From Mesorhizobium sp. (GTDB lineage Bacteria; Pseudomonadota; Alphaproteobacteria; Rhizobiales; Rhizobiaceae), in contig SAJS01000001.1 of the NCBI GenBank assembly GCA_004017535.1, forward strand, positions 372,001 through 436,000: a stretch of DNA of 64,000 nucleotides. Direction: 5' to 3'. The position numbers were made by a program, and so were the translations under genes. Under the pieces are notes generated by a model. It did not search any database and was not told the origin of the DNA. It saw nothing but the letters and a program-made list of their open reading frames with translations. Below, one piece after another: positions 9,716-38,424 of this stretch (position 1 is its first letter; each line of letters opens with the position of its first letter).

Positions 9716-11182
9716 TCAAGCGCCCATCAGCTGCTTGACCTTCCGCATATCCTGCAAGAACCGCTCCCGCTCGGCCTCCTTGTCCTCCTGCTCCCGGATG
9801 CGCAGGATGAAGGACGGGTGGATGGTCAGGAACACCCGCAAGCCATCCTCGAGCTCGACCACGTCGCCGCGCATCTTGGTGATCGGCACCGCCTTGCCGA
9901 GCAGCGATTGCGCCGCCGTCGCTCCGAGCGCCACAACGAGGTTGGGCTTGACCAAGTCAAGCTCCTTGTCCAGCCACCAGCGGCAGGCCTGGATCTCGCC
10001 GGCATTGGGCTTGGAGTGGATGCGCCTTTTGCCGCGCGGCTCGAATTTGAAGTGCTTCACCGCATTGGTCACATAGACCTTGCGTCGATCGATCGCGGCG
10101 TCGTCCAGGATGCTGTCGAACACCTTGCCCGCCGGCCCGACGAACGGCTTGCCGGCCAGATCCTCTTGGTCGCCAGGCTGCTCGCCGACGAAGATCACGT
10201 CGGCATTCTCCGGCCCTTCGCCGAAGACGGTCTGCGTCGCGTCGCGCCAGAGCGGGCAGCGGCGGCAGGCTTTCGCCTCCTCGCGCAGCTCCGGAATATC
10301 GTCGGCCTCTGGCGCCACCACATCGGACCGCTCGGGCGTAGGCCAGTGCTTGGCCTTCACCTTGGCATGATGCGGTGCTGGGCTGGTTGGCATCCGGGCG
10401 ATCATGTCTGACGCGGCTTTGTCCGCTCCTGCTATCAGATCTGGAATGAGCGAGGCCTCGGGAAGGTTCCGCCAATATTTCTTCGGCATCTCCTTCTGCA
10501 TCGCCTTCACCTTGAGGCGCGCCGGGTTGAAGACGTTTTCGAAATAGGTCCGCCACAACGCCTCGGCATCGTCTTCCGCCGGCGCGTCGCGCTTGGCCGC
10601 ACCCGGCCCCACCGCCAGCCTCTCGCCGTCCCAGTCGGCCGAGGCATGCGGGGTGAGGATCGTCCAGCGCATGCCAGTGAAACGACGCACGAAGAAATCG
10701 GCATTGCGCTCGACGATGTAATGGTCGGGCTCGAACCACGCGACATAGCGCTCGTCCGCGCCTTCGCCGATCTTCCGGAAACGCACGAAGGCGCGCATCT
10801 TGTGGATGTCGCGGTGCACGGCCTTCTCCATCGCCTCCAGCCGCCGGATGTCGGGATCGGTCGCGATCGAAAGCAGCTTCGGCTCCGAACGCAAACGCCA
10901 GAGCAGCCGGTAAAGAAAGCCGAAGCGCTCGGGGTCGCAATGGCAGATCACCGTCTCGGCGCGCTCGATGAAGTCGCGCGGTACGACCAGTCGCGCATCG
11001 GCTTGCGCGGCCGGCAATTCGCTGGCGCCATCTTCGCGATCCGGCTCGACCTGCCACGCGACATCTTCCGGCGGAATGTCGTTCGTCGCCAGCCGCCGCG
11101 CCGCGTCGCGCCAGCCGGCGAAATCCGTCTGGCTTTCGAGCCGGACGACATGAGCGGCGAGGTTGAGCTGGGTTCTTGCCAT
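9716..11182 (-). CDS. DUF4130-UdgX fusion: uracil-DNA glycosylase-type DNA repair protein
   Basis: 488-aa two-domain protein. Residues about 70-250 match DUF4130 (TIGR03915 type, often fused to or beside UdgX). Residues about 290-488 are a UdgX-type uracil-DNA glycosylase: CRRC (C306, C309) and C400 as Fe-S ligands, GEQPGDQEDLAG at 333-344, VTNAVKHFKF, the UdgX-specific loop KRRIHSKP with H389, and TIHPSFILR. In characterised UdgX this histidine forms a covalent bond with the abasic site after uracil removal. Where family-4 glycosylases have another Cys ligand (VKC) this protein has H377. It starts 2 bases after the radical SAM gene, so both form one operon behind an SOS box. Confidence 0.92.
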   Translation of the reverse strand: MARTQLNLAAHVVRLESQTDFAGWRDAARRLATNDIPPEDVAWQVEPDREDGASELPAAQADARLVVPRDFIERAETVICHCDPERFGFLYRLLWRLRSEPKLLSIATDPDIRRLEAMEKAVHRDIHKMRAFVRFRKIGEGADERYVAWFEPDHYIVERNADFFVRRFTGMRWTILTPHASADWDGERLAVGPGAAKRDAPAEDDAEALWRTYFENVFNPARLKVKAMQKEMPKKYWRNLPEASLIPDLIAGADKAASDMIARMPTSPAPHHAKVKAKHWPTPERSDVVAPEADDIPELREEAKACRRCPLWRDATQTVFGEGPENADVIFVGEQPGDQEDLAGKPFVGPAGKVFDSILDDAAIDRRKVYVTNAVKHFKFEPRGKRRIHSKPNAGEIQACRWWLDKELDLVKPNLVVALGATAAQSLLGKAVPITKMRGDVVELEDGLRVFLTIHPSFILRIREQEDKEAERERFLQDMRKVKQLMGA

Positions 11183-11184
11183 GG

Positions 11185-12420
11185 TCAGAACAAGGAAAGC
11201 TGCTCGCAGGAGCGGGTGATCGCCTGGCGCAAGCCGGCCTTGTCGGTCAGCGCGCCCGGCGACCAGTCTTCCGCGACGATGAAAGGCCGCACCTTGGCGA
11301 CCGAATGGCAGAGCCGGCCGACATCCTCGAGCCGCAGCCGGCGATGGCGGCGGGTCTCGACGATCCTGTCGGTGACCTTGGTGCCGAGCCCTGGAACGCG
11401 CAGCAGCGCTTCCCGCTCGGCGCGGTTGATGTCGACCGGGAACCGGCCCCGGTTGCGCAGCGCCCAGGCGAGTTTTGGGTCGATTGCCAGGTCGAGCATC
11501 CCGTCATTGCTGCCGGCCAGGATTTCCGGCTGCGAGAAACCGTAGAACCGCATCAGCCAGTCCGCCTGGTAGAGCCGGTGCTCGCGCATCAACGGCGGCT
11601 TCTGCGAGGGCAGCGAAGATGATGAATCGGGGATCGGGCTGAAGGCGGAGTAATAAACGCGGCGCAGGTGATAGCTGCCATAAAGCCGGGCGCTTGCGCG
11701 CAGAATGCCATCGTCGGAGGTCTTGTCGGCACCCACGATCATCTGCGTCGACTGGCCGCCCGGCGCGAAGCGCTCGCGCCTGCGGCTCTGCAATGTCGGC
11801 TCGGCCTTCTCCTCGATCTTGCGGCGCAGCTTGGCCATCGAAAGCCGGATCGTTTCCGGCTTCTTTTCCGGCGCCAGCTTCTTGACGCCTTCGTCCGTCG
11901 GCAGCTCGACATTGATCGACAGACGGTCGGCATAGAGGCCGGCCTTCTCGATCAGCTCGGCCGATGCCTCCGGAATTGTTTTCAGATGAATGTAGCCGCC
12001 GAACTTCTCCTCGATCCTGAGCCTGCGCGCCACCTCGACCATCTCGCCCATCGTCTCGTCGGGCGAGTGGATGACGCCCGACGACAGGAACAGTCCCTCG
12101 ATGTAGTTGCGGCGATAGAAATCCATGGTGAGCTTCACCACCTCATCGACGCTGAAGCGGGCGCGCCGCACATTCGAGGACGAGCGGTTGATGCAATAGC
12201 TGCAGTCATAGATGCAGAAATTGGTGAGCAGGATTTTCAAGAGCGAGATGCGGCGCCCGTCCGGCGCGTAGGAATGGCAGATGCCGGAACCCTCCGTCGA
12301 GCCGATGCCGCCCGATCTCAGCGAGTCGCGCTTCGCCGAGCCGGATGACGCGCAGGAAGCGTCGTATTTGGCGGCGTCGGAAAGGATCGCCAGTTTCTCG
12401 CGGACGGAAAGCGTAGCCAT
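11185..12420 (-). CDS. Putative DNA-modification/repair radical SAM protein (TIGR03916 type)
   Basis: 411-aa radical SAM protein, first gene of an operon with the UdgX fusion. The [4Fe-4S] motif CxxxCxxC is C69-C73-C76 in NFCIYDCSYCINR. A helix-hairpin-helix near residues 335-362 (LLRVPGLGTKVTDRIVETRR) indicates DNA binding. Two more conserved-looking cysteines are at 23 and 48. The last residues are EQLSLF, a perfect match to the bacterial beta-clamp-binding consensus QL(S/D)LF. The partner DUF4130 family nearly always travels with this family, but the chemistry is not known. A role in processing damaged or modified bases is inference from the HhH domain, partner and SOS box. Confidence 0.92.
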   Translation of the reverse strand: MATLSVREKLAILSDAAKYDASCASSGSAKRDSLRSGGIGSTEGSGICHSYAPDGRRISLLKILLTNFCIYDCSYCINRSSSNVRRARFSVDEVVKLTMDFYRRNYIEGLFLSSGVIHSPDETMGEMVEVARRLRIEEKFGGYIHLKTIPEASAELIEKAGLYADRLSINVELPTDEGVKKLAPEKKPETIRLSMAKLRRKIEEKAEPTLQSRRRERFAPGGQSTQMIVGADKTSDDGILRASARLYGSYHLRRVYYSAFSPIPDSSSSLPSQKPPLMREHRLYQADWLMRFYGFSQPEILAGSNDGMLDLAIDPKLAWALRNRGRFPVDINRAEREALLRVPGLGTKVTDRIVETRRHRRLRLEDVGRLCHSVAKVRPFIVAEDWSPGALTDKAGLRQAITRSCEQLSLF

Positions 12421-12422
12421 TT

Positions 12423-12437
12423 GTTCATGATATGTTC
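12423..12437 (+). promoter_or_regulatory. LexA (SOS) box GTTC-N7-GTTC
   Basis: GTTC at 12423-12426, seven bases ATGATAT, GTTC at 12434-12437: an exact match to the alphaproteobacterial LexA consensus. It ends two bases before the start codon of the radical SAM gene, overlapping the region where ribosomes bind. On the minus strand an upstream TTATAGCC and TTGCCG could be promoter elements. Binding by LexA is inferred from consensus, not shown. Confidence 0.82.
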
Positions 12438-12509
12438 CAGAAATGCAATTGGCTATAACTTTTGATTGTCCGCGGCAAAACGTGATCGCCGCGCGCGTGT
12501 CGGTCCGCC

Positions 12510-13931
12510 TTACACCTCGTGCAGATAAAGGTGATAGTCTAATTCGCTGACCGTGCGCGCGACGCGCAGGTACTCGGCTTGCTTGATCGCCACGAAGGTC
12601 CGGTGCAGGTCTGGGCCCAGCGCCGATTTCAGGAAATCGGAGCCCCTGGCCGCCTCGATCGCGGCGCGCCAGTCAGCCGGCATGGTCGATCTCTCGCTCG
12701 CCTGCTCGTAACCGTTCCCAGTGGTCTCTGGCCCCGGATCCAGCCCCTCGTCGAGCCCTTTGACGATGCCGGCCAGCACCGTCGCCGCCACCAGATAGGG
12801 ATTGGCGTCGACGCCCGACGGCCTGTGCTCGATCCGGCGGTTCCTGGCCTCGCCCGCCGGCACGCGCAGCGCCACCGAGCGGTTGTTGACTCCCCATGTC
12901 GGCGCCACCGGCGCGTAGGATTGCGAGACGAAGCGCCGCCATGAATTGGCGTGCGGCGCGAACACCAGCATCGATTCCGCCATGGTGTGGATCAGGCCGC
13001 CAAGCGCGTTGAGCAGCGCCGGTGACCATTTCTCGCCGGCGGCCTCGGTGAAGACGTTGCGGCCGGCATCGTCCTGCAGCGAGACGTGGAAATGCATGCC
13101 GGAGCCCGCATAGGCCTCGATGGGCTTGGCCATGAAGCAGGCGGTGACGCCGTGCCGCCGCGCCTGCGCCCTGACAAGCCGCTTCAGCATGACGAGATCG
13201 TCGGCTGCCCGCATCACGTCCTTGCGGTAGTTCAGCGTCAGCTCGTACTGGCCGGGCGCATATTCGGAAATGACGGTCTCGGCCGGAATGCCTTGCGCCT
13301 TGGCCGCGGCGTAGATGTCGGAAAACAGCGGTTCCATGCCGTGCAGATGGTCGACCGAATAGACTTCCGTCTTCGCCGAACGGCGGCCGTCGAGCACCGC
13401 GCGGGCAGGCTGCACTTTGCCATCCGCGTCGCGCTCATTGGACAGCAGGAAGAACTCCAGCTCGAAGGCGCCAGCAGGATGCAGGCCGCGCGCCGCCAGC
13501 AATTCCACCTGCCTTGCCAGCACCAGGCGCGGATCGGAGGTCATCGGCTGGCCGTCGAGATGATACATCGACATCAGCACCTGGCCGCGCGCCGGGCTGG
13601 TGCCGTAGAGCGGCACCAGCGTGCCCGGAATCGGCCATGCCCTGAGGTCGCCGTCGCCTGTATCCCACACCAGTCCGGTCTCGTGCACATCCTCGCCGGT
13701 GATGTCGAGGCCGAGGATCGAGATCGGCAGGTGCCTACCATTCTCGAAAATGCCCAACAGCTCATGCCGGCGCACGATCTTGCCGCGGCCGATGCCGTTG
13801 GCGTCGGTGAGCACGATGTCGAACGCCTCGATCTCGGGATGCGCGTCGAGAAAGGCCTTCGCCTCGACGGGCGTCGAGCCGGAAGGGGACGTGGTAACGG
13901 CGTTCGGATTGTCCATGGCCGCTTTTCTCAC
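12510..13931 (-). CDS. Glutamine synthetase-family enzyme (PuuA-like gamma-glutamyl ligase)
   Basis: 473 aa, shaped like type-I glutamine synthetase but of the gamma-glutamylpolyamine synthetase branch. Motifs: AFELEFFLL (metal Glu), SEYAPGQYELTL, MAKPIEAYAGSGMHFHVSL, SYAPVAPTWGVNNRSVALR and IEHRPSGVDANPYL. These enzymes join glutamate to an amine such as putrescine, ethanolamine or another amine. A GTG start overlaps the stop of the upstream aminotransferase (GTGA); an ATG 15 bases later (13916) is the alternative start. Pairing with a class III aminotransferase suggests amine or polyamine breakdown; a candidate gamma-glutamyl-GABA hydrolase lies at 24 kb. Confidence 0.88.
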   Translation of the reverse strand: MRKAAMDNPNAVTTSPSGSTPVEAKAFLDAHPEIEAFDIVLTDANGIGRGKIVRRHELLGIFENGRHLPISILGLDITGEDVHETGLVWDTGDGDLRAWPIPGTLVPLYGTSPARGQVLMSMYHLDGQPMTSDPRLVLARQVELLAARGLHPAGAFELEFFLLSNERDADGKVQPARAVLDGRRSAKTEVYSVDHLHGMEPLFSDIYAAAKAQGIPAETVISEYAPGQYELTLNYRKDVMRAADDLVMLKRLVRAQARRHGVTACFMAKPIEAYAGSGMHFHVSLQDDAGRNVFTEAAGEKWSPALLNALGGLIHTMAESMLVFAPHANSWRRFVSQSYAPVAPTWGVNNRSVALRVPAGEARNRRIEHRPSGVDANPYLVAATVLAGIVKGLDEGLDPGPETTGNGYEQASERSTMPADWRAAIEAARGSDFLKSALGPDLHRTFVAIKQAEYLRVARTVSELDYHLYLHEV

Positions 13932-36108: not shown

Positions 36109-38424
36109 ATGGGTAGAACAAAGACCGAGAACATCCCGGCGGATGTCTATATCCAGTTCGTGCGGGCATTGTTCGACAACGCCGGCATGGTCGCGATCGG
36201 CGGCGTATGCTACTGGATTCTCGGCTTCATGGTCTACCTGCGTACGCAGGATCTGCTTTATCTGACGTTGGCTTTCGTTCTGCTATCGGCCAGCCTCTGG
36301 CGGTACTTCAGCATCCGAGGCTTCCATAGAGCGGGCGGCACTATAGCAAGTGTCGCAGAGGCAGAAGCGATAGAGCGCAATTACATTCTCAAAGGCAGCG
36401 CGCAGGGCCTCGCATTGGGGTCATTCTGCTTCGTGTCGATCTACCTGCGTCCTGATCAATTTGCTGAACTGGCGTCGGTGTCGTTGTCGTTGACGACCTT
36501 GGTAACGGTTGTCGGACGAAGCTACGGGTCCATGCGCATGGTCCAGATTTTTTCCTTGACCCTCGTCGGGCCCGCGGCGCTTGCGCTCATTCTGCGCATG
36601 GATATGGCTTCTGTCGTCCTCGGCTTGATGATCTTCCCATTGACGTTCGTCACCATCAACAGCGCCGACCATGTCCGCAACGTGCTCTTCTCCGCGGTCA
36701 TCGGCCACAAGGAGGCCAGGAAACTGACGCGCCGGTTCGATCGCGCGCTCAACACCATGTCGCATGGCCTGGTCATGCTGGGGCCCGACGGGCGCGTCGC
36801 GGTGGCCAATGCAGAGGCCGCCCGCCTGATGTCGCTGAGATCGGGCGATGCCTTGCTCGGACGCTCGATCCACGGCCTTTTGATGCGCGGCGTCGCCGGC
36901 GGCATGCTGGCGCCGAAAGACTGCCGCTACATCGAGGCGCAGCTGACGCGCGCCCTGCGTGAAGGCCGTGACCGCAAGGTGCTCGTTTCGCTGGCCAACG
37001 GTCAGCATTACGAATTCTCCGCCCGCGAAGGCAGCCAGGAATTGGGCGTCATCACCTTCGAGGACGTGACGGTGCGCGTCGAGGCGGAGGAAAAGATACG
37101 CTTCATGGCGCGCTACGACAATCTGACGGGCCTGCCGAACCGCGCCTATTTCCACGAGCTGGTCCGTGAGGCCATGGCTTCCGGCGAGGAGGATCGGCTC
37201 TGCGGCCTCGCGGTGCTCGATCTCGACGACTTCAAGAGCGTCAACGACACGCTCGGCCATCCGGTCGGCGACGGGCTGATCTACGCCGTGGCCGAGCGTC
37301 TCGCGGCGATCGCCGGACCTGGTATCACCGTCAGCCGCTTCGGCGGCGACGAGTTCATGATCTTCTTCGATCGCGTCGAGGACGAGAGCCACCTCAGCAC
37401 CCTGCTCGACCAGATCTTCGCGGACCTGCAGGGCGAAGTCGACGTCGCCGGCCACGGGTTGCGCATCCAGGCCAGCGGCGGCGCGGTGCTGTCCAAAGTG
37501 AAGGATACCGACGCGGACGCCATGATCGTCAAGGCAGACCTTGCCCTCTACAAGGCCAAGGAACTCGGCAAGAACAGCTGGCGGCTGTTCGAGGCGGCCA
37601 TGGATGCCGCTTTCCGCAATCGCCAGTTGATGAAGGCCGATCTGCGCAACGCCGTGCAGGCCAGGGACTTGCGCGTCGTCTATCAGCCGATCGTGGCCGT
37701 CAGCACCATGCGCATCGCCAGTTGCGAGGCGCTCTGCCGTTGGAACCATCCCGACCTCGGTCCGATCTCGCCCAGCGTCTTCATTCCGCTCGCCGAGGAG
37801 ATGGGCATCGTTTCGGACATAAGCACGTTCGTGCTGGAGGCCGCGTGCGCCGAATGCGCCAAATGGCCGGCCCAGACCAGCGTGTCGGTCAACCTCTCGG
37901 CCAAGGATTTCCGCAGCCGCGATATCGTCCAGAAGGTCAGGGAAGCCTTGGCGAAGTCGGGCCTTGCGGCGCACCGGCTCGAGATCGAGGTCACCGAGAC
38001 CGCCTTGCTCGATGACAAGTCGCTGACGCGCGAATCGATCGAGGACTTGAAGGCGCTTGGCGTGCGCATCGCGCTTGACGATTTCGGGACCGGCTATTCC
38101 AGCCTGAGCTATCTCCACAAACTGCCGCTCGACAAGATCAAGATCGACCGCTCTTTCCTGGTCGATATGAACCAGAACCGGCAGTCGCTCGATCTGCTGA
38201 AGGGCATCGTCGGCCTGTCGCGGACATTGGGCCTTTTGGTGACCATCGAAGGCGTCGAGACCTTCGAGCAGCTGAAGACGCTGGTTCATCTGGTCAAGCC
38301 GGACTTCGTGCAGGGCTTCCTCTTCGGCGCCGCGCTCAGCGCGTCGGGCATCGAGACGATGTCGAGCGTCACATGGCCATTTGCCGCAGACCTGCATATC
38401 GCCGGCAAACGAACGGCCAGCTGA
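36109..38424 (+). CDS. Membrane-bound GGDEF-EAL cyclic-di-GMP protein
   Basis: 771 aa. Five to six N-terminal helices (about 20-200) form a membrane sensor without a recognised name. A PAS-like segment (LNTMSHGLVMLGPDGRVAV) follows at about 220-330. The GGDEF domain has an intact RFGGDEF (412-416) but no RxxD inhibitory site upstream. The EAL domain keeps EALCRW (540-542), VNLSAKDF, EVTETAL, LDDFGTGYSS, KIKIDRSF and TIEGVET, the residues needed for phosphodiesterase activity. Both activities are therefore possible. The gene stands alone, followed 336 bp later by a FeeM-like synthase. Confidence 0.94.
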   Translation: MGRTKTENIPADVYIQFVRALFDNAGMVAIGGVCYWILGFMVYLRTQDLLYLTLAFVLLSASLWRYFSIRGFHRAGGTIASVAEAEAIERNYILKGSAQGLALGSFCFVSIYLRPDQFAELASVSLSLTTLVTVVGRSYGSMRMVQIFSLTLVGPAALALILRMDMASVVLGLMIFPLTFVTINSADHVRNVLFSAVIGHKEARKLTRRFDRALNTMSHGLVMLGPDGRVAVANAEAARLMSLRSGDALLGRSIHGLLMRGVAGGMLAPKDCRYIEAQLTRALREGRDRKVLVSLANGQHYEFSAREGSQELGVITFEDVTVRVEAEEKIRFMARYDNLTGLPNRAYFHELVREAMASGEEDRLCGLAVLDLDDFKSVNDTLGHPVGDGLIYAVAERLAAIAGPGITVSRFGGDEFMIFFDRVEDESHLSTLLDQIFADLQGEVDVAGHGLRIQASGGAVLSKVKDTDADAMIVKADLALYKAKELGKNSWRLFEAAMDAAFRNRQLMKADLRNAVQARDLRVVYQPIVAVSTMRIASCEALCRWNHPDLGPISPSVFIPLAEEMGIVSDISTFVLEAACAECAKWPAQTSVSVNLSAKDFRSRDIVQKVREALAKSGLAAHRLEIEVTETALLDDKSLTRESIEDLKALGVRIALDDFGTGYSSLSYLHKLPLDKIKIDRSFLVDMNQNRQSLDLLKGIVGLSRTLGLLVTIEGVETFEQLKTLVHLVKPDFVQGFLFGAALSASGIETMSSVTWPFAADLHIAGKRTAS

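Follow-up and report, generated by a model that had tools for sequence, protein, structure and literature searches.

A putative LexA operator laid over the predicted -10 element of a two-gene radical SAM-UdgX repair operon in Mesorhizobium

The LexA operator of alphaproteobacteria is the direct repeat GTTC-N7-GTTC, as named in PMC8565304; Table 1 of PMC9578287 gives it for Caulobacter. Genes akin to those described here have been placed under LexA before. In the sections of PMC8565304 (2021) that deal with it, the two-gene base-excision operon COG1573-COG4277 is inferred to be a LexA target in Bacteroidetes from conserved motifs, and earlier reports that the SOS response regulates a uracil-DNA glycosylase system in Verrucomicrobia and Alphaproteobacteria are cited, with reference to the Caulobacter SOS regulon paper. 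LexA control of such a gene pair is hence largely known already, having been inferred or reported in other bacteria. In Streptomyces venezuelae, vnz_31145, which excerpts of PMC9380542 call a radical SAM protein and which is a possible member of the same family, is LexA-bound and damage-induced. To judge by paper titles, work on UdgX concerns its enzymology and its use as a tool in uracil mapping and base editing, and the R-loop histidine of M. smegmatis UdgX bonds covalently to an abasic site (passages of PMC10359453). DUF4130 has been linked to SplB-like proteins and uracil glycosylases (excerpts of PMC3765255). Within the open-licence literature, DUF4130 was found in that paper only and, among papers retrieved by family accession, COG4277 in PMC8565304 only; UdgX was found there together with neither LexA nor radical SAM, and two UdgX papers, PMC10359453 being one, contain neither 'SOS' nor 'operon'. 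Our additions, likewise not found by these searches of the open-licence literature, are a predicted leaderless geometry, the UdgX identity of the second gene product with its probable SOS link, and a switch of operator outside the alphaproteobacteria.

The operon studied here lies on the minus strand of a 64,000-nucleotide stretch of Mesorhizobium sp. DNA, referred to below as the window (Table 1). Its first product matches the radical SAM family TIGR03916 with 559.5 bits against a curated cut-off of 343.5, and also shows a helix-hairpin-helix match just below the Pfam cut-off; we take TIGR03916 to be the same family as COG4277. The second gene begins 2 nt past the stop codon of the first, and its product matches TIGR03914 with 332.5 bits (curated cut-off 189.95). 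The gene order proposed in the preliminary description, a radical SAM-UdgX operon, is therefore borne out, with DUF4130 fused to the UdgX part. The second protein also matches solved UdgX structures (best E 3.5e-53) and shares with M. smegmatis UdgX (structures such as 6ail and 6ajo; PMC10359453, in the sections on its motifs) GEQPG, KRRIH and the crosslinking histidine. These signature residues mark it as a probable UdgX, which would form a covalent crosslink with abasic sites derived from uracil. Unlike the M. smegmatis protein, the putative UdgX studied here is fused behind DUF4130 and follows a radical SAM gene.

Table 1. Features of the operon and its upstream region, in window coordinates.
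Feature	Position	Strand	Basis or remark
DUF4130 (TIGR03915) fused to UdgX (TIGR03914), 488 aa	9716..11182	-	Profile match
UdgX R-loop KRRIH, residues 385-389	10016..10030	-	Its His aligns with the crosslinking His109 of M. smegmatis UdgX
UdgX motif A GEQPG, residues 333-337	10172..10186	-	Motif as defined in the relevant part of PMC10359453
Radical SAM protein TIGR03916 (rSAM_link_UDG), 411 aa	11185..12420	-	Profile match
Putative LexA box GAACATATCATGAAC, in gene orientation	12423..12437	-	GTTC-N7-GTTC on the + strand; predicted from sequence
Predicted promoter -10 TATCAT	12427..12432	-	Inside the LexA box; its end is 6 nt from the start codon
Weak -35-like hexamer TAGCCA, spacer 17	12450..12455	-	Promoter scan; overlaps the conserved AT.GCG block

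The pairing of the two genes extends beyond the window. In 79 of the 80 named loci, which are the best 80 of 584 relatives, the first gene is followed on its own strand by a tblastn match to the second protein; the exception is L184, whose contig stops shortly after the first gene. We surveyed the R-loop in 225 loci, 65 of which did not extend over the site or had no motif-A match. Among the 160 scored, 144 have a KRRIH-type R-loop, 137 of them with GEQPG and 7 with GEG/GEA; six of the 16 non-matches were inspected and comprise three loci cut at or nearly at the locus end, two with KFRLH and one false motif-A match. Among the same best 80 of 584, and with records of its own genome possibly excluded, Mesorhizobium plurifarium and Mesorhizobium sp. 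SOD10 provide the nearest named relatives of the radical SAM protein, at 97% identity. Within the genus the gene has a scattered distribution, being present in 3 of 9 same-genus genomes among the matches listed, the window's own included. Of 72,556 plasmid records, 158 carry relatives of the radical SAM gene, and 142 of these 158 are predicted to be non-mobilizable.

The plus strand at 12423-12437 reads GTTCATGATATGTTC, an exact GTTC-N7-GTTC direct repeat. Since the operon is on the minus strand, the box in gene orientation is GAACATATCATGAAC, which is followed by AA and then by the ATG at 12420-12418, so that box and start codon are 2 nt apart, as the preliminary description had it. Its further remark that no other such box stands upstream of a gene in the window also holds: the second exact match, at 37561-37575, falls inside two long overlapping ORFs and was discounted as intragenic. 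The simplest objection to a LexA box is that it is a chance match before an ordinary promoter that LexA does not control, and on motif counts this objection fares well. The window holds two exact matches against a shuffle mean of 1.32, two or more being found in 37 of 100 shuffles, and the 6.86 Mb genome holds 156 against 172 for a reversed control pattern. The count of GTTC-N7-GTTC is above chance in neither. Motif counting alone cannot tell the box from chance, and the test was therefore moved to conservation among orthologues.

We assembled 205 deduplicated alphaproteobacterial orthologues by pooling family and class loci with the 80 named ones and with loci of further genomes; they are 212 loci less four duplicates and less L051, L059 and L074, which the protein pattern did not pick up and each of which carries the box. 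An exact box in either orientation lies within 120 nt upstream of the start in 200 of the 205, compared with 0.68 loci on average and at most 3 when the same regions were shuffled base by base 100 times; the loci are related to one another, so these counts are non-independent trials. By orientation, 182 of the 200 have GAAC and 19 GTTC, one having both. Only the N7 spacing is conserved, with N3-N6 and N8-N12 each found in 0-3 loci. The box is within 20 nt of the start in 180 of the 205 loci and exactly 2 nt from it in 79. Absence of the box from most orthologous operons had been named in the preliminary description as an outcome that would refute LexA control, and these counts are the reverse of it.

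Smaller comparisons gave the same picture. The radical SAM gene was matched in 68 of 151 genomes of a family-level sample, and exact GAAC-N7-GAAC lies within 60 nt of the start in 67 of these 68 loci (the window and 67 further family loci), the one miss, L076, being a partial gene under the family cut-off. A class sample added 24 loci above the cut-off, 22 of them with the box; one of the two misses, L081, has a flipped box 82 nt upstream. Scoring was confined to class matches above the cut-off, which leaves out L102-L106 and matches that have no locus; L076, also below the cut-off, was kept as a miss. One comparison added 76 of the 80 named loci, four duplicates having been removed; as the best 80 of 584 relatives, the named set leans toward close relatives. 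Alphaproteobacterial matches in a later genome sample were fetched in part. The box is seen in several orders, for example in Rhizobium, Brevundimonas, Phaeobacter, Sphingomonas and Gluconobacter.

Five loci of the 205 fail the box rule. Two of them, L144 and L169, have a box with one mismatch each, in L151 it is missed through the choice of start, and L076 is the partial gene mentioned above. The fifth, L080, lacks the box and comes from a 1.5 Mb genome without a lexA match above the cut-off. Such a match was present in 11 of 13 genomes checked; the 85% complete genome G195 gave no lexA match at all, though its locus L101 carries the box. Three loci (L020, L029 and L033) have three successive GAAC half-sites at N7, that is, two overlapping boxes, an arrangement that could accommodate more than one LexA dimer.

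The genome of the window has one TIGR00498 (lexA) match above the cut-off, and this gene has an exact box of its own. Exact boxes also precede two Y-family polymerase genes, ssb and a helicase-like gene, as well as genes without an evident SOS role, while the genome's own recA has a one-mismatch box only. The genome has 19 places that fit a narrower pattern with an AT-rich core and 7 that fit its reversed control (at these places the gene was taken to be the longest ORF close by; the polymerase ORF of L107 starts inside its box). Some of these places precede SOS-type genes and others precede, for example, genes for PPDK_N or DUF2130 proteins, for which reason we rejected the AT-core pattern as a clean definition of the regulon. 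An exact match also lies about 90 nt before the matched stretch of a second UDG-like gene, L281, which is below the TIGR03914 cut-off; the match lies in seemingly coding sequence and was not used.

The strongest argument for LexA comes from outside the alphaproteobacteria. CTGT-N8-ACAG is the LexA operator of gammaproteobacteria. All 29 non-alphaproteobacterial orthologues above the cut-off, which belong to further classes of Pseudomonadota, were fetched, at least nine of them from one genus, and CTGT-N8-ACAG is exact in 19, has one mismatch in five and is absent from five; the alphaproteobacterial box occurs in the examined upstream stretch of 0 of the 29, so that five loci have an operator of neither kind. 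Within a subset of 20 of these loci, CTGT-N8-ACAG is exact in 17 (shuffle mean 0.03) and other spacings are found in none. The E. coli LexA box for comparison with this motif is given in PMC9578287. Two unrelated sequences, which appear to share only the family of their repressor, thus fill the same place before the same operon. Three further features were observed at these loci: in L248, L249 and L260 the CTGT-N8-ACAG box runs into a GTG start codon; L246, L286 and L290, from one genus outside the class, are without both LexA operators; and the latter three have in common a near-palindrome around TCTCATCCAATGAGA about 23 nt upstream of the start, which may be the operator of another regulator or of a LexA that has diverged.

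Conservation in 200 of 205 orthologues at the N7 spacing alone and an exact second LexA operator in 19 of 29 non-alphaproteobacterial relatives are hard to square with a chance match, which we consider refuted as far as sequence can refute it and scarcely tenable as an explanation. Because the box is kept in almost every alphaproteobacterial orthologue scored and the gammaproteobacterial operator mostly takes its place elsewhere, LexA control of the operon is very probable, and we put its probability at about 0.88. The reading of the box offered in the preliminary description is in this respect upheld by conservation, by the boxes before SOS genes of the same genome and by operator replacement.

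We then considered where in the transcription unit the operator would act. Compared with the known alphaproteobacterial operator, the box has the same exact consensus, a predicted promoter and counterparts before lexA and polymerase genes, but it differs in overlapping the predicted -10 and in standing 2 nt from the start codon, which implies a leaderless mRNA. A promoter scan by consensus match of positions 12380-12620 returned a single site, TAGCCA-17-TATCAT, with 0.2 expected in shuffles. In 88 of the 205 alphaproteobacterial loci, the end of a -10-like hexamer falls exactly 6 nt upstream of the start (shuffle mean 4.2); 500 hexamer shuffles gave a maximum of 13 at any distance. The hexamer shuffle ignores the fixed distance of the box, and loci were therefore compared by spacing group; the nearest box is GAAC-oriented in 182 loci, and the groups take in 170 of these, spacings of 0-1 and 10-11 nt lying outside them.

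Of the 79 loci with a spacing of 2 nt, 70 have the -10-like hexamer within the box. This coincidence is what would be expected if the element were mainly a conserved core promoter, a -10 region whose GAAC repeats serve another regulator or none. Against such an explanation, when the spacing is 12-15 nt only 6 of 29 loci have the hexamer within the box and a separate one lies 5-7 nt before the start in 16 of 29, yet both GAAC half-sites are exact. Moreover, the flipped orientation is the only or the nearest one in 18 of the 205 loci, and the same box stands before lexA and the polymerase genes of the same genome. We regard a pure core-promoter element as highly improbable.

A second possibility accepts LexA control and supposes that the mRNA has a leader, made from a promoter further upstream, in which the box acts. 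A block of sequence, TCAAA....AT.GCG, is conserved upstream of the box in the window (12451-12465) and in 28 further family loci with 2-nt spacing, 29 in all, and could belong to such a promoter; its second part overlaps the -35 place and its TCAAA part is unexplained. Some loci also have the box further from the start, a few of these with a Shine-Dalgarno motif. Furthermore, the -10 inside the box could reflect the AT-rich core that LexA itself prefers: at spacings of 3-7 nt the hexamer is in the box in 26 of 40 loci, ending more than 6 nt from the start, and at more than 15 nt it is still in the box in 13 of 22, so part of these in-box hexamers may have that origin. However, -10-like hexamers peak sharply at 6 nt before the start despite the varying position of the box. 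A strong Shine-Dalgarno motif is likewise found in none of the 119 loci at spacings of 2-7 nt, in contrast to 5 of 51 where the spacing is at least 12 nt. A leader made from further upstream is on these grounds unlikely, though the possibility is not negligible.

We therefore favour a box that probably lies on the -10 itself. TATCAT ends 6 nt before the ATG, in keeping with the 6-7 nt or so that a leaderless promoter calls for, and upstream of the operon's first gene there is no strong Shine-Dalgarno motif; we rejected the latter as a stand-alone argument, the motif being uncommon in the window (9 of 43 ORFs). A -10 ending at this distance would start transcription from the ATG itself, and the mRNA of the operon is accordingly predicted, with somewhat better than even confidence, to be leaderless. 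The preliminary description had placed LexA on the 'promoter or leader' of the operon; the promoter half of this statement is the more probable, and the leader half is disfavoured by the predicted leaderless geometry.

The arrangement suggests how the operon may be switched. As long as a cell is undamaged, LexA sitting on the direct repeat would cover the -10 and block RNA polymerase. Upon DNA damage, RecA-driven self-cleavage of LexA would free the promoter, and transcription would begin at the ATG or a few bases from it. The radical SAM protein and DUF4130-UdgX would then be produced together, and UdgX would probably bind and crosslink uracil or abasic sites that become accessible in the course of SOS repair.

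In its general plan the operon resembles COG1573-COG4277, in that a gene of a uracil-DNA glycosylase family and a partner would be under LexA control. It differs in its Mesorhizobium-like lineage, in the geometry of its box, in the signature residues of UdgX and in the presence of CTGT-N8-ACAG in other classes, all absent from the corresponding sections of PMC8565304. SRAP proteins (YedK/HMCES) crosslink to abasic sites, and their fold is unrelated to that of UdgX. The logic would be similar by analogy, an SOS-linked protein covalently covering abasic sites; the SOS link of SRAP proteins is drawn in parts of PMC3765255.

Taken together, these results lead us to a tentative proposal, one we think possible rather than likely. 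In at least two classes of Pseudomonadota, class-specific LexA operators would switch on a suicidal UdgX trap for uracil and abasic sites along with its radical SAM partner, and in many alphaproteobacteria the mRNA would be leaderless, with operator, -10 and start codon merged within about 20 bp. The pair may shield uracil or abasic sites in the single-stranded gaps of the SOS response, as SRAP proteins are thought to do. Control of UdgX by LexA through unrelated operators, in more than one class, would show at what times a protein that attaches itself covalently to DNA is of use to the cell, and an operator merged with a leaderless promoter would constitute a compact natural switch.
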